Below are positions 29,721 to 60,943 of a DNA stretch of 64,000 bases, one piece after another. The DNA is from Candidatus Gastranaerophilales bacterium (GTDB taxonomy: Bacteria > Cyanobacteriota > Vampirovibrionia > Gastranaerophilales > Gastranaerophilaceae): NCBI GenBank assembly GCA_944323655.1, contig CALUTL010000009.1, positions 1 to 64,000 on the forward strand. Direction: 5' to 3'. The translations under genes and the position numbers were made by a program. The first letter of the stretch is position 1. The number at the start of each line of letters is the position of its first letter. Under the pieces are notes generated by a model. The model saw nothing but the letters and a program-made list of their open reading frames with translations, ran no database searches and was not told the origin of the DNA.

Positions 29721-30197
29721 ATGAAAATAGCAGCAATCAACAATTCGCCAAATTTTAAAGGACTCTGGGGAGAAAAGCAAAAGTCTTTTGCAGGAAATGA
29801 ATATACCTCTTTATCATTTATTAAAAAAACATATTATCCGTTTAAAAATGAATCAAAGGAATCCATTGAAGCAAACAAAAAAGCTAATGAAGGCTATTAT
29901 CATGCTGATTGGAGAGATACAGGCGGAACGTACGTTGAAGAAAAAATTGATGTAGAGGTTAAAAAACCTCTTAGCTTTACTGAGCAGGAATTTTCAGCAT
30001 ATCGCAAATCAGGACTTGGAGCTGTAAAACTCGAAGAAGTTTCACATCCTATTGAAAAAGAACTGATAGCCAGAGGTTTGTACGGCTATATGAACAAATC
30101 TCAGGAATATCTTGATGAATTTAGCTGGCGCAGCTCGTTCGGATATAAAATACGTAACTGCTTGAAAAAACTTGGACAAAAACTTAAAAAAGTTTAA
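29721..30197 (+). CDS. Hypothetical protein with N-terminal Asn/Phe-Gly leader
   Basis: 158 residues, no family recognised. The start MKIAAINNSPNFKG has the same pattern as three following genes and one at 50283. The body is charged and soluble-looking (Trp/Tyr-rich YYHADWRDTGGTYVEE in the middle, basic KLGQKLKKV at the end) with no signal peptide or membrane helix. AAAAGG precedes the ATG. It probably belongs to the lineage-specific set of proteins sharing this leader. Confidence 0.7.
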   Translation: MKIAAINNSPNFKGLWGEKQKSFAGNEYTSLSFIKKTYYPFKNESKESIEANKKANEGYYHADWRDTGGTYVEEKIDVEVKKPLSFTEQEFSAYRKSGLGAVKLEEVSHPIEKELIARGLYGYMNKSQEYLDEFSWRSSFGYKIRNCLKKLGQKLKKV

Positions 30198-30250
30198 TTC
30201 GGCTAATTTAATTTTCAATATAAAAAAATATTATGTGTTAGACTTTCTAT

Positions 30251-31087
30251 ATGATTTCAATTGCTCCTATAAATCGACAGCTTTCTTTTAACGGAATTTC
30301 TTATCCAAAAGATTTGAACTATAAAAAGGCATTATAAAAAGGTTTAAGTGAGGCTTTCGGTATAAGCTGCAAATTGGAAGACTTAAACCCCGTTGCAGGG
30401 CCTGAAGAAGTACGATCAATTATCAGTAAACTTAAGCCCCAACAATACGAAGTCGGTGATAATTTTAGGGCAAATTTTCACATTCACACAAAGGCTTCGG
30501 ACGGAAGCTTGACACCGAAAGAATTTCTTGAACAGTGTGCCGATTGGGCTAATCGTATTTTTAAATTAAACAAATCAAAAGATGATCTGCCGGCTTTTTC
30601 TGCCGCAATTACAGATCATGACAGAGTTGCAGGCGTCAAAGAAGCTATCGCATTAATATCACAAGAACCCGATAAGTATAAGAATTTTAAATTCGTAAGC
30701 GGATGCGAATTTATGTTTCACGGTTACAAAGAGCCATACAGTGCTTTTGAAGCTGTAGGTTTAGGATTTAACCCGTTTGACAAAAACCTTCAACATTTAA
30801 TGAAAGGTTTTGCCTCTCATAACAACGTTTCAGAAGCAAAAAAGATAATTGAATCAGGCGGAATTCTTTCCTGGGCGCATCCGATTGTGACGCCGGAAAA
30901 GATTAATGAGGATTTTTTTACCTTCTTAAAGGCAAACGGAATTAACGGGGTTGAAGGGAATTACCAATATAGCAGATGGGATCAGGAGTATGTAAATTCC
31001 GTAAAACCTATTCTTGAAAAGTTTATTAAACAATTCAAGATGTTTGTCACAGGCGGAACAGACAGCCATAGAAAAACAATCTTCTAA
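30251..31087 (+). pseudogene. PHP-domain protein with Asn/Phe-Gly leader, interrupted by an in-frame stop
   Basis: Read from the ATG at 30251 the frame gives MISIAPINRQLSFNG, a leader like the neighbours', then a TAA at 30335-30337, then continues open in the same frame to 31087 (278 codons in all). A single C-to-T change from CAA (Gln) would explain the stop. The downstream part has PHP motifs HIHTKASDGSL, AAITDHDRVAG, VSGCEFMF, LSWAHPIV and TGGTDSHRK. A TTG at 30374 could restart translation of a 237-residue version. The protein ends just after the last motif, so the C-terminus may also be cut. Confidence 0.65.
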
Positions 31088-31199
31088 TTCGTTTATTTGT
31101 AAAATTATATTACAATTTTAGTGTATTTTGAACTTTGGGATTAAAAAAAAACTTTATATATATACAGTTAAAAATACTGTTTTTATGTTCATCTAGAAT

Positions 31200-31229
31200 G
31201 GAAAGGGGCGACGAGCCCCTTTCCTTTTT
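31200..31229 (+). terminator. Strong rho-independent terminator
   Basis: Perfect 10-bp GC-rich stem GGAAAGGGGC / GCCCCTTTCC with a 5-base loop and TTTTT tail, about 110 bases after the PHP stop. Confidence 0.88.
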
Positions 31230-31337
31230 GCGTTTTTATTTACCTTTTTGATAAAAGACATTTTTTGTATTGTAAATTTTTGTTTTATAATAGCAAAAAA
31301 TTCCTTGATTAGTTTTATACCAAAAAAGGAGATAGTA

Positions 31338-31709
31338 ATGCAGGTAAATTTTAACCCTTACACTAATAGACAGTCATTTGGCGCAAAATTAAGACTTAAC
31401 CACAAGGAGCTTAATCATCTGTTTTCTGAGGAGTTATCACATGAGAAAATTTACGGAAGTCTTAGAACCAGAATAGAAAAATTTAAAACGATATACCCAA
31501 ATCAGATTATAGAGGGGAATTTGATAAGTAAAGATTCTAAAAAAGTATTAGAACTGTACAACCCGAACACAAGATATACAAAATCTTTTGATTGGCCTAA
31601 ATATCCGACTTATCGGAGCGGTTTATTTGAACAAGTTTTCAAATTCCTTACGACCGATGAATCAAAAAGATTTTGGACAGATGAAACGGCTAAAAACCTT
31701 TTTGCATAA
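31338..31709 (+). CDS. Hypothetical protein with N-terminal Asn/Phe-Gly leader
   Basis: 123 residues from the ATG at 31338, chosen because AAAGGAG lies 6 bases upstream; a longer frame opening at 31248 lacks a site and adds a hydrophobic tail. The start MQVNFNPYTNRQSFGAKL carries the leader pattern. The rest is basic, with Arg/Lys/Tyr-rich strings (LYNPNTRYTKSFDWPKYP), and no domain I recognise. It is flanked by the other leader-type genes. Confidence 0.65.
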   Translation: MQVNFNPYTNRQSFGAKLRLNHKELNHLFSEELSHEKIYGSLRTRIEKFKTIYPNQIIEGNLISKDSKKVLELYNPNTRYTKSFDWPKYPTYRSGLFEQVFKFLTTDESKRFWTDETAKNLFA

Positions 31710-31762
31710 AAAGTATTAAATCTTAATAGCAAAATAATTTTTGTTCAGGTTTAAAAATAAGT

Positions 31763-32389
31763 ATGAAAATAACCCCGATTAATAATTTTAGAAAACTTTT
31801 TGGAATAACGCTTGCCGCAGGCGCAATAGCCTCAGCTCCGCTAATTTCTTCCGGCACAAACCAAGTATCAGCACAAGATACGGTTACACTCACAACTCAA
31901 GCAGTTCCTCCGCAAGGAACAACTGATCCTTTAATTTTAGAAGCCGCTCCAAGTCCTGTGGTTTTTGTTACAGGCGAAAGAAAAAAAGCAACGATAGTTG
32001 TTGATATTTCTAAAAATGTTTTATACAAATATGATGAAGACGGTGAGCCTGAAGCCGCTTACAGAATAGCTAGCGGAAAGCCCCGAACTCCGACGGATAC
32101 CGGTCTTAGAGTTGTTTTAGGGGTTGAAAGATATCCGTATAAATCAGCTCCCGCTTCAACCAAAAGACATCAAAAGCCCTGGGATTACGGCCCGAGAGCT
32201 ATTATTCTTGAAACTCTTGATCCTGTTACAGGAAAGAAAGGTTCGACCGGTGAATTTATCCACGGTAACAACAATCCCTCAAGTATCGGTAAATACGCTT
32301 CTTTAGGCTGTATGAGAATGGATAATGAGGTTATTAAAAAAGTTTCTTCTCAAGTTAAAAGAGGCGACCTTGTTCTGATTACTAAGTAA
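31763..32389 (+). CDS. L,D-transpeptidase (YkuD family)
   Basis: 208 residues. The YkuD catalytic domain covers residues ~75-207 with the active-site pattern H167-G ... S180-L-G-C183-M-R-M. It cross-links peptidoglycan stem peptides 3-3 or attaches proteins, in the periplasm. The N-terminus MKITPINNFRKLFG repeats the leader pattern of its neighbours and runs into a hydrophobic signal-peptide-like stretch (ITLAAGAIASAPLISSG). The DPVTGKKGSTGEFIHG loop is typical. No peptidoglycan-binding domain is present. Confidence 0.88.
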   Translation: MKITPINNFRKLFGITLAAGAIASAPLISSGTNQVSAQDTVTLTTQAVPPQGTTDPLILEAAPSPVVFVTGERKKATIVVDISKNVLYKYDEDGEPEAAYRIASGKPRTPTDTGLRVVLGVERYPYKSAPASTKRHQKPWDYGPRAIILETLDPVTGKKGSTGEFIHGNNNPSSIGKYASLGCMRMDNEVIKKVSSQVKRGDLVLITK

Positions 32390-50282: not shown

Positions 50283-52196
50283 TTGAGAATTTCACCAATT
50301 TCGCGTGCTGTTGCATTTGGCAGCCGTCCGTTAAACATTGAGGAACAGAAGGAATACGAAAGTATTTTAAAACAGGGTAAGGAGATTATAGGATTAACAG
50401 GGCATGACATATTTATAATGCCGTCACAAAGTCTTCCGCAAGCACCGGACAAAAACACAGGTATCGGTCATTTGACCTCTAAAACCGAACAGGAATACAT
50501 TAAATATATGCACACAATGCTCGGTTTTAATGTTTTGGAGGATTTACCCTCAGGGCAGATTGAACCTTACCCGAACGACTTTTATTGCAATTACAGAAGC
50601 ACCTCAATTGCTCTCGGAGATCATCAAATAAATCCGTTCTTACTGACGACTCCGGAATATTCAAACCTTTTAACCGAAGATGAAGCAGCCGGAATTGTCA
50701 AATCTAACACTAGAAATAACAACGAACGATTTGCAAATTTCCAAAACATAATGGGCGAAGACGGCGGAATGGATAAAGCGTTAAAAAAAGCTTACGAAAG
50801 ATTTGAACAGCTTGAAGATTCTACCCCCCTAAAACAAGCTTATAAAAAATTTAAGGACCAGAACAACGAATGGATAGATTTTCTGTATAAAGATAAAGGT
50901 GAATTTTTTAAATTCAAACAATTTTTAGCGGAAGATCATCTTCAAAAATCAAGAAAATTTTTAAATTCAATAGGAGTAAAATACTGCGGGGACTGTCTTA
51001 TCGGCGCAACAGACGATGAAGTAAAAGCTAAAATGTTAGCGTTTGACCTGGATAATTCATTAGGCTGGGTGCTTCCGATACCGAAATTTAAAGATATGGA
51101 AAACGAAAACACTGATGCTCACAGATATTTAAAATACAAAGTGCAAAATATGGCACGGCGATATGACATGATTAGATTTGATGTAGGCTGGGCTTATGTT
51201 CAGCCAAGACTAATTAGTAACAAAGATAATTCAAAAATAGAAAAGCCGTATTTTGGGGATAAGATTTTGACTCTTATAGAAAACTGGGTTAAAGAAGTAA
51301 AAGGAGAAGATTATGATCCTAAAAATCTTATATGGGAATTTGAAGCCGGCCCCGACGACTTTGAATGGGAAAAAGACGGAAAAGTTATAGATCCGATAAA
51401 CAAAAGAGTAAAAATTCTAAGTACAATGTACATGTCAAACAACTGGGGATCAAATGAAGCTTATGCAAGGCGCGGATTTGATCCTGAGTATTCGATAGTA
51501 GGTGTCGGGAATCATGATCATCAACCGCTTGCCGAAATAGCAAACAATGTTCCTTACCCTATTAAAGGCGCAGACGGCAACGTCAGTTATACAAATCCTA
51601 AAGCTGATTCCATCGAACCGTTAGCAAAACTATTTAATACAGACACAGATTTAGTGAATGTTCCTGAAGAATACGCAAAGGCAAAAGCAGCCGAAGCAAT
51701 GACAGGCAAAAACACAATGTCTTTCTTTATGGATACATTCGGCTATAAAGTACGTTTTGACAAGCACGGTTTTAATTGCGACGACACACCGACCGAAAAT
51801 TATGCTCATAAAATTCTTTATGATTTCAAAAAGCAATATCACGAAGCAGTCGAAAGCGGTTACGGGGCAAATAAAATGGATTCGCTTGAAAAAATCTTTA
51901 AAGCAAGAGGGTTAGATAAAAAGCATCCTGTTTTATATGCTTCAATAGTAAAATACAGAGATTTTCTTTACGAACAAATACCGCCAGCGGAAATTGTTTC
52001 ATTAGAAAATCTTCTTGAAAACACTGAAGAAACCTCTTTAAAAACAAAGGTTAAAAACAGATATCTTCTGCCTATAATAGCAGCAGGTGCTGTAATACTC
52101 GGTGCCGGAGCTTATTATTATACAAAACAGCATGAAAAATCAGCTTCATCAGCAGTATCAAATTCACAAAGGCCTAGTCTTGTTCAATCCGCTTAA
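50283..52196 (+). CDS. malQ: GH77 4-alpha-glucanotransferase with leader motif and C-terminal membrane helix
   Basis: 637 residues, starting with TTG behind a strong AAAGGAG. The opening MRISPISRAVAFGSRPLN carries the Asn/Phe-Gly-type leader. The GH77 core shows IRFDVGWAYVQP (nucleophile Asp), LIWEFEAGPDDFEW (acid/base Glu) and VGVGNHDHQP (third Asp), so it should be active in moving maltooligosaccharides. After the catalytic core, a hydrophobic helix (LLPIIAAGAVILGAGAYYYT) near the C-terminus suggests membrane attachment, unusual for MalQ. It differs clearly from the second GH77 enzyme at 59087. Confidence 0.85.
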   Translation: MRISPISRAVAFGSRPLNIEEQKEYESILKQGKEIIGLTGHDIFIMPSQSLPQAPDKNTGIGHLTSKTEQEYIKYMHTMLGFNVLEDLPSGQIEPYPNDFYCNYRSTSIALGDHQINPFLLTTPEYSNLLTEDEAAGIVKSNTRNNNERFANFQNIMGEDGGMDKALKKAYERFEQLEDSTPLKQAYKKFKDQNNEWIDFLYKDKGEFFKFKQFLAEDHLQKSRKFLNSIGVKYCGDCLIGATDDEVKAKMLAFDLDNSLGWVLPIPKFKDMENENTDAHRYLKYKVQNMARRYDMIRFDVGWAYVQPRLISNKDNSKIEKPYFGDKILTLIENWVKEVKGEDYDPKNLIWEFEAGPDDFEWEKDGKVIDPINKRVKILSTMYMSNNWGSNEAYARRGFDPEYSIVGVGNHDHQPLAEIANNVPYPIKGADGNVSYTNPKADSIEPLAKLFNTDTDLVNVPEEYAKAKAAEAMTGKNTMSFFMDTFGYKVRFDKHGFNCDDTPTENYAHKILYDFKKQYHEAVESGYGANKMDSLEKIFKARGLDKKHPVLYASIVKYRDFLYEQIPPAEIVSLENLLENTEETSLKTKVKNRYLLPIIAAGAVILGAGAYYYTKQHEKSASSAVSNSQRPSLVQSA

Positions 52197-59086: not shown

Positions 59087-60943
59087 ATGGTTTGTACACT
59101 TAATTATACTGATGTAATTCAAAAAGCACTAAAAACTCTTGATAAGAAGAATTTTGCTTTCATCATCCATGGCGGAAGTTTTCCGGCTGCCGCTGGCGAA
59201 AATACAGGGTTTGGCTCTATAAACTCAAATGGCGGTCGTGAAGTTATTGATTTTGCAAAAGGTATTTTCAATGCAATTCAGCTTGGGCCTGCGGGCAAGA
59301 CTAAAGGTTGCGATTCTTCGCCTTACACAGGAACAATATTCTCCGGCAACCCGCTTTTTATTGACTTGAAACAGCTTACAACTGACGAGTGGAACAATAT
59401 TTTATCTACTGAAACTTACAATTCTATCGTTGAATGCAATCCAAACAAAAATATAAATAAAACATCTTACTCATACATCTACAAAAAACAAAATGAAGCA
59501 CTGGAAGAAGCTTGGAATAATTTTAAAGCAAACGGAAGTGCGGAATTGAAAAAAGAATTTGAAACTTACAAGCTTGAAAACGACTACTGGCTTGATAAAG
59601 ACAGCTTGTATGAAGCGCTTTCAATAGAACATGGCAACGATTACTGGCCTCTATGGACGTCAGAAGTCGACAAAAACCTTTTTAATCCGAAGTCAAATGA
59701 AGAAAAAATTGAATATTCAAAACGTATTAACGAAATTTCTCAAAAGTATTCTGATGCAATTGAGCAGTATAAATTTGTTCAATTTGTTCTGAACAAACAA
59801 AACGAAAAGACAAGAGAATACGCTAAAAATGCAGGAATTAAAATGATAGCAGACCGTCAGGTAGCATTTTCAGACCGTGACACATGGGCTTATCAATCAC
59901 TATTCTTGGATGGTTGGATGTTAGGTTGTCCTCCGGATTACTTCTCAAAAGACGGACAGGCTTGGGGATTCCCTGTAATGAATCCTGACAGAATGTATAA
60001 TGATGACGGTTCTTTGGATGAGGGCGGAATTCTGCTTAAAAACCTTTACAAAAAGATGTTTAGAGAAAACCCGGGCGGAGTAAGAATTGACCATATTGTA
60101 GGTTTGATTGATCCTTGGGTTTACAAAGCAGGTAAAAAGCCTCGTATTGAACAAGGCGCAGGTAGATTGTATTCTTCTCCGGAGCATCCTGAACTTAAAA
60201 AATATGCTATTGCAAGGCTTGAAGATTTGGATGAAACCTTAGAAGCTGATAAAGAAAAGAGAGTTAAAACACTTTCAAATGCGCAAATTCATCTTTACGG
60301 AAGACTAATCGAAAAAATTGTTATTGCAGCCGCAGAAGAAGAAGGACTGGATAAAGATGCAATTGTTTGCGAGGATTTGGGAACTTTGACAAATCCTGTA
60401 GCTGCGGTTATGAAGGAATACGGACTTCAGGGAATGAGATTAACCCAGTTTGTTGTTCCGGAAAAACCTGAACATCCTTATCGCTGCCGCAACATAGATT
60501 CTCGCTGCTGGGCGATGGTCGGAACCCACGACAACGAACCTATTTCAATGTGGGCTGATAAAATGATTAATACTCACGAGGGTTATCTGCACGTCAAAAA
60601 CCTTGTGGAAGACTTATTTGCAGAATGCGACAATAAAGACGACTTAATTACACAATTAACAAAAGATGCTGATTTCCTAACCCAAACCAAATTGGTAGAA
60701 ATGTTTGCATCAAAAGCAGAAAATATTCAAATATTCTTCACTGATTTCTTCAAAATAAAAGATGTCTACAACAGACCAGGAACTTCAGGAGATGAAAACT
60801 GGAGCCTCAGACTTCCGGACAACTTTAAAGAATTACCGACAATTAATCTCGCAAAAATTCTTAAACTTGCAATAATCGCACGAGGAAAGGATTTTGCAGA
60901 ACAAAACAAAGCAGTAATTGATGAGTTGTCAAATATTGAATAA
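59087..60943 (+). CDS. malQ: 4-alpha-glucanotransferase (GH77)
   Basis: 618 residues, strong AAAGGGAG before the ATG. GH77 hallmarks are intact: MIADRQVAFSDRDTWAY, GVRIDHIVGLIDPWVY (nucleophile Asp), IVCEDLGTLTNPVAAVM (acid/base Glu), and MVGTHDNEPISMW (third Asp). It moves glucan segments between maltooligosaccharides in the cytoplasm. Unlike the enzyme at 50283 it lacks the leader motif and the C-terminal helix. Two distinct GH77 genes within 9 kb suggest different substrates or places of action. Confidence 0.9.
   Translation: MVCTLNYTDVIQKALKTLDKKNFAFIIHGGSFPAAAGENTGFGSINSNGGREVIDFAKGIFNAIQLGPAGKTKGCDSSPYTGTIFSGNPLFIDLKQLTTDEWNNILSTETYNSIVECNPNKNINKTSYSYIYKKQNEALEEAWNNFKANGSAELKKEFETYKLENDYWLDKDSLYEALSIEHGNDYWPLWTSEVDKNLFNPKSNEEKIEYSKRINEISQKYSDAIEQYKFVQFVLNKQNEKTREYAKNAGIKMIADRQVAFSDRDTWAYQSLFLDGWMLGCPPDYFSKDGQAWGFPVMNPDRMYNDDGSLDEGGILLKNLYKKMFRENPGGVRIDHIVGLIDPWVYKAGKKPRIEQGAGRLYSSPEHPELKKYAIARLEDLDETLEADKEKRVKTLSNAQIHLYGRLIEKIVIAAAEEEGLDKDAIVCEDLGTLTNPVAAVMKEYGLQGMRLTQFVVPEKPEHPYRCRNIDSRCWAMVGTHDNEPISMWADKMINTHEGYLHVKNLVEDLFAECDNKDDLITQLTKDADFLTQTKLVEMFASKAENIQIFFTDFFKIKDVYNRPGTSGDENWSLRLPDNFKELPTINLAKILKLAIIARGKDFAEQNKAVIDELSNIE

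Follow-up and report, generated by a model that had tools for sequence, protein, structure and literature searches.

A conserved N-terminal leader on unrelated proteins of Gastranaerophilales and its possible role as an export signal

Leader genes in the window

The window, i.e. the complete stretch of 64,000 nucleotides analyzed here, harbors five genes with similar N-terminal starts, all of which are located on the forward strand. Four of them are neighbors between positions 29721 and 32389 and the fifth lies at 50283; an earlier note on this DNA had drawn attention to these starts, and all five are indeed present in the sequence. The first gene (29721..30197, + strand) encodes a 158-aa protein that belongs to no Pfam family and has no assigned function. 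Its leader MKIAAINNSPNFKG (29721..29762, +) has a motif score of 16.1, and the segment INN..[NS]FKGLW represents the most conserved stretch of its orthologues (G049, G044, G108).

The second gene is PHP-domain-like according to the earlier note and starts with an ATG at position 30251. The leader MISIAPINRQLSFNG (30251..30295, +) is present as claimed, but an in-frame TAA at 30335-30337 separates it from the PHP body, so that leader and hydrolase are not joined in this strain. The remaining frame is open to position 31087 (30251..31087, +). Intact orthologues with leader and PHP domain are found in G049 and G053 (L179:2878-3714, L180:707-1546), thus identifying the copy in the window as broken. 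The gene is apparently also broken in G084 (L193).

The intergenic segment 31146-31240 has matches of 82-92% elsewhere in the genus (G073, G077, G109) and comprises a G+C-rich hairpin and a T run. It corresponds to no Rfam family, the Rfam search of the window having returned two tRNAs only, and it is possibly a small RNA or a dispersed repeat.

The third gene (31338..31709, +) encodes a 123-aa protein with no Pfam family. Its leader MQVNFNPYTNRQSFGAK (31338..31388, +) is kept in four orthologues of the genus, two of which have a spacer that is seven residues longer. The fourth gene (31763..32389, +) encodes an L,D-transpeptidase (YkuD; PF03734, E=1.2e-17) with the partial leader MKITPINN, and its M-K-I-T head is followed by a signal-peptide-like hydrophobic stretch. 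Of the leader proposed for this protein in the earlier note, the M-x-I start holds, but the F-x-G does not: within the genus its Phe is replaced by Leu or Ile, and conservation is confined to M-x-I and the hydrophobic stretch behind it. The affiliation of the L,D-transpeptidase to the leader set is doubtful. The leader genes that surround it vary between species of one genus. A promoter-like element with two copies in the window precedes both the third and the fourth gene. The first copy, ATAATAGCAAAAAATTCCTTGATTAGTTTTATAC (31287..31320, +; PWM score 15.6), is separated by 17 nt from the ATG at 31338, and the second, TTAATAGCAAAATAATTTTTGTTCAGGTTTAAAA (31723..31756, +; PWM score 21.1), by 6 nt from the ATG at 31763.

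The fifth gene (50283..52196, +) encodes a divergent GH77-like protein with the fold of a 4-alpha-glucanotransferase. The best Foldseek matches of its model are GH77 enzymes with E-values down to 1e-15, whereas the Pfam match to PF02446 reaches only E=0.005 and is thus very weak; the protein may be an altered enzyme. Its start codon at 50283 is a TTG, but orthologues with an ATG at the same place support the start, and the leader MRISPISRAVAFGS (50283..50324, +) is backed by the orthologues and the AlphaFold2 model. Nineteen GH77-like orthologues all share the residues M1, F12, R15 and L17. A partly overlapping set comprises 68 different N-termini of named records, the majority of which are labelled Candidatus Gastranaerophilales; I or V occupies residue 3 in 64 of the 68 and the Phe is retained in nearly all of them, while the spacers vary. 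The earlier suggestion that such starts are frequent in the order is supported. A leaderless GH77 paralogue (59087..60943, +), which is homologous to the leader-bearing GH77s and starts directly before the shared domain, provides an internal contrast.

The leader and its upstream element

The leader opens with the consensus M-[KNQR]-[IV]-[NST]-x-[IV]-N, which is followed by an Asn-rich, acid-poor spacer and an anchor of the type [SNAT]-F-[GTK]-[GS]-[RKN]. Among the strong cases, I or V occupies residue 3 in 59 of 66 (partly by selection) and residue 6 in 44 of 63; the spacer of the 66 cases consists of 23% Asn and is almost devoid of Asp and Glu. In the composition of the leader, Asn stands at 3.7x, Ser at 2.0x and the acidic residues at about 0.2x, i.e. 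an approximately fivefold depletion. The spacer ranges from a few to more than 40 residues and the anchor Phe is mostly located at residues 7-30, directly preceded by S, N, A or T. Hydrophobic residues are not clearly enriched at position F+4, and most carriers have no hydrophobic helix after the Phe. Invariant anchor residues combined with a variable spacer are found in the GH77 family, in a 128-138-aa family and in a family of membrane proteins. The leader is modelled as disordered in two proteins, namely, in residues 1-13 of the GH77-like protein (pLDDT <50, with a well-modelled body) and in residues 1-22 of the 123-aa protein (pLDDT <50 in a low-confidence model). L037:461-1231 and its relatives have leader heads with longer spacers to a Phe-Gly-type anchor and predicted membrane segments further on.

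The source genome was sampled non-randomly by 40 stretches of 20 kb in addition to the window, with gene starts set by our own gene caller, and the 762 genes called represent 44% of the genome. About 44 of them (5.8%) carry the leader after hand-curation, in which obvious pilin, HTH and signal-peptide matches were pruned, making the list a partly curated one. Approximately one in 20 proteins of the genome begins with the leader, and extrapolation from the sampled 44% results in roughly 85-100 carriers per genome. A blind position-specific model, which was trained on one half of the sampled genes without hand-picked examples and applied to the other half, retrieved 15 held-out genes at a score of at least 8 compared with 0.8 expected; the two halves contributed nine and six genes versus 0.39 and 0.38 expected from internal-Met peptides. 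The in-sample fit (38 genes at a score of at least 10 vs 0.19 expected) is optimistic because training and scoring relied on one and the same gene set. The regular expression proposed in the earlier note, ^M.{8,16}F[GKNA][GAS], failed to show a significant enrichment (26 seen vs 20.2 expected from internal Met; shuffle mean 15.8, maximum 24), and this and other simple expressions were dropped as too loose. A pattern at the DNA level, compared with its reversed control, is in excess in the order and also in a cyanobacterium (48 vs 11), and we gave it little weight because the reversed control is unmatched in other genomes.

A Pfam search of about 30 leader proteins yielded few families. The bodies of the leader proteins belong to unrelated families. 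Common ancestry of the full proteins, the cause that might have explained the pattern away, is thereby ruled out, and together with the held-out enrichment this upholds the view of a short N-terminal pattern on unrelated cargo. Predicted transmembrane stretches occur in about one third of the leader proteins. A Sec-type appearance is seen in two of the 44, compared with 154 of 718 other proteins. Neither a significant clustering of leader genes (four adjacent pairs vs 2.35 expected) nor a clear operon bias was detected among the sampled genes. The outlying families f3, f4 and f6 have few leaders in small samples, and family f8 of the same class, which like all families other than f1 was lightly sampled, exhibits no clear leader excess. 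The open-access papers searched describe neither the leader nor a type III system for this order. We conclude that the leader is real and order-wide in Gastranaerophilales.

A promoter-like element of 34 bp, TAGCAAAA-(17-18 bp)-TTTTATA, is located upstream of leader genes. The k-mer TAGCAAAA precedes 12 of 44 leader genes and 19 of 718 others (p=2e-8). A matrix of the complete element scores at least 9 upstream of 30 genes of the source genome, i.e. 17 of 44 leader and 13 of 735 other genes (Fisher p=1.6e-15, an in-sample value because leader genes had served to seed the matrix), and no match of at least 10 was obtained in 646 coding segments. In other genomes, the matrix retrieves, with no retraining, 12 of 50 leader genes versus 20 of 1566 others (p=3e-11), and some of these 20 resemble leader genes missed by the gene caller. 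In the GH77 family, the element is present upstream of 23 of 68 orthologues and of 10 of 340 flanking genes (p=1e-12). Genes selected by the element, which was itself seeded on leader genes, have I or V at residue 3 in 58% versus 17% and first 12 residues free of Asp and Glu in 67% versus 34%. The common on-switch of many leader genes thus lets them appear as one co-regulated set for a common destination. Invariant anchors with a variable spacer, modelled disorder and the shared element are indicative of a targeting or processing signal, in agreement with the earlier note, whose observation is confirmed and whose interpretation is partly supported.

A flagellum-derived export apparatus in Gastranaerophilales

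The source genome encodes a type III export apparatus with FlhA, FlhB, FliP, FliI, FliH, FliF and FlgB/C, and no flagellin was found in it. FlhA-family proteins are present in every Gastranaerophilales genome examined. The full-length FlhAs fall into two groups of about 860-890 and about 670-740 bits, a grouping based on bit scores rather than on a tree, and many genomes harbor both. Among the genomes tested within the order, flagellin occurs only in those with the higher-scoring FlhA. The source genome possesses solely the lower-scoring set, designated as system B, which is kept in nearly all examined Gastranaerophilales and also present in family f8. Flagellated relatives possess it in addition to a second, flagellar set, which makes it unlikely that system B is just a decayed flagellum.

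Incomplete flagellar gene sets of non-motile Gastranaerophilales have previously been interpreted as the result of flagellum loss, and ACD20 is listed with two flhA genes (PMC4040986, PMC3787301). These residual sets are probably the same genes as system B, but the occurrence of both sets together in flagellated relatives departs from the earlier reading.

Nearly every genome of the order that was searched encodes a protein of about 490 aa that consists of FlhA_C only; family f8 yielded no such protein. Its gene adjoins the leader GH77 in the source genome, in G001, G018, G039, G052 and G064 and probably in G055, all of which belong to a part of family f1. This adjacency was rejected as a proof of linkage and counts only once, because it goes back to a single block that was passed down in this part of the family. 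In the flagellated G013, the FlhA_C-only gene adjoins FlgE-, FlgD- and FliK/FliJ-like genes (names from sequence). A third FlhA_C-like match of the source genome (C2:139426-140067, within a 596-aa frame) is restricted to genus g1 among the genomes listed. The paralogues L022:6679-8247 and L023:16405-17406, which start with MGMAASQAR[FY]LGLTARKTNVEYEGQQINQ and have no convincing Pfam assignment, are possible axial subunits of system B.

Possible functions of the leader

Our preferred reading, which we put forward tentatively and from sequence, is that the leader may act as an N-terminal signal by which a co-regulated set of effector-like proteins is exported through system B. It would be an uncleaved or late-cleaved sorting signal that is read as a linear motif, composed of a free N-terminus, small aliphatic residues at positions 3 and 6, a flexible Asn/Ser-rich and acid-poor linker and the [SNAT]-F-[GTK]-[GS]-[RKN] anchor. 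With many of their genes under the common promoter-like element, the carriers would be fed by the leader into the flagellum-derived apparatus, and the FlhA_C-only protein is a candidate for the leader receptor. The leader fits most sequence criteria of type III signals, namely, predicted disorder, an aliphatic residue 3, few acidic residues and in most cases the lack of a Sec signal. Held-out enrichment, invariant anchors, the shared element and the presence of the export genes point in the same direction, as do the order-wide FlhA_C-only protein with its place beside the leader GH77 and the turnover of leader genes around the L,D-transpeptidase.

Several observations argue against export. The promoter-like element is absent upstream of the system B genes for FlhA, FliF, FliH, FlgB and a FlgF/G-like protein, but co-regulation with the apparatus is common rather than required. 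System B of family f8 is accompanied by no clear excess of leaders, and transmembrane stretches in about a third of the carriers are unusual for type III cargo. The link between the leader and system B is circumstantial on account of these three points. Moreover, the anchor position and F+4 differ from the flagellar gate-recognition motif, and no chaperones were identified for the leader cargo. A bolder proposition is that a type III secretion system derived from the flagellum, dedicated to export and not to motility, operates in all Gastranaerophilales, has FlhA_C as its soluble receptor and exports approximately 100 co-regulated proteins per genome with the leader M-x-[IV]...F-[GTK]-[GS]; it appears somewhat unlikely to us. 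If true, common animal-gut bacteria would possess a secretion system and a repertoire of effectors that have gone unrecognized. The results suggest that the genes formerly taken for a decaying flagellum may constitute a functional export machine. Through the leader, about 5% of the proteome of an uncultured gut order becomes accessible from sequence, for the most part proteins without family assignment, and if it is an export signal, the secretome would be predictable from sequence alone.

Effector genes of Pseudomonas syringae share a regulatory box in their upstream regions. The leader proteins resemble these effectors in the unstructured polar N-terminus, the aliphatic residue 3, the scarcity of acidic residues, the unrelated bodies and the shared upstream element, but the leader, a putative export signal, is Asn-rich instead of Ser-rich, has a defined F-x-G anchor and is accompanied by machinery genes without the element. 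The three-part rule for P. syringae type III effectors requires an aliphatic residue or Pro at position 3 or 4, no acidic residue among the first 12 and more than 10% Ser within the first 50 (PMC3338616). Seven of 48 genes selected by the element conform to the full rule, versus 105 of 2025 others; Asn stands in for much of the Ser. The flagellar gate-recognition motif reads F-x-x-x-hydrophobic. Early flagellar subunits possess a bipartite export signal with a hydrophobic extreme N-terminus and a downstream motif at about residues 36-40 (PMC8983047). The leader has a comparable layout and FlhB is present here, but its F-[GTK]-[GS] anchor is mostly located at residues 7-30 and lacks a clear hydrophobic F+4. 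Sec signal peptides and type IV prepilin leaders are likewise N-terminal and of variable length, but most carriers have no hydrophobic core and the leader contains no G|F(x)4E site. Cargo peptides of encapsulins and microcompartments form short amphipathic helices, whereas the leader is modelled without a helix; its reading as an encapsulation signal has no support.

The alternative most to be reckoned with, albeit an unlikely one, is an intracellular address: the leader would be a docking tag by which a scaffold or membrane receptor gathers the co-regulated proteins inside the cell. That cytosolic-type enzymes (GH77-like, amidohydrolase) and membrane proteins all carry the leader is more easily reconciled with docking than with export, and the rarity of Sec signals and the absence of the element at system B genes suit it as well. 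However, no receptor candidate was found, and the composition of the signal, the lineage-specific cargo and the local turnover look more like an exported repertoire.

A propeptide function, with a protease that recognizes [SNAT]-F-x-[GS] and cuts off the N-terminal end to mature or activate the protein, would account for the sharp anchor at variable distance from the N-terminus and for its modelled disorder. Residues 3 and 6 are strongly conserved too, which a cleavage site alone would not need, the conservation of GH77 runs on into the body (R15, L17) and no dedicated protease was identified, so we regard this function as improbable. A still poorer prospect is that the leader is a relic of the birth of new genes, i.e. 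a 5-prime cassette of promoter and first codons that was repeatedly captured and encodes a peptide with little or no function. The co-occurrence of element and leader on unrelated bodies would be the expected outcome, but the GH77 anchors are kept although the bodies are often only 25-45% identical and the spacer drifts, and a functionless peptide would not behave in this way; the leader may nevertheless have originated by cassette capture. An origin of the pattern in low-GC codon usage and Asn-rich starts, an artefact to which the barely enriched loose expression and the cyanobacterial excess of the DNA pattern would lend some color, is largely refuted by the held-out enrichment and next to inconceivable, as the internal-Met and shuffled controls, the conservation in orthologues and the association with the promoter-like element would be unexpected from composition.
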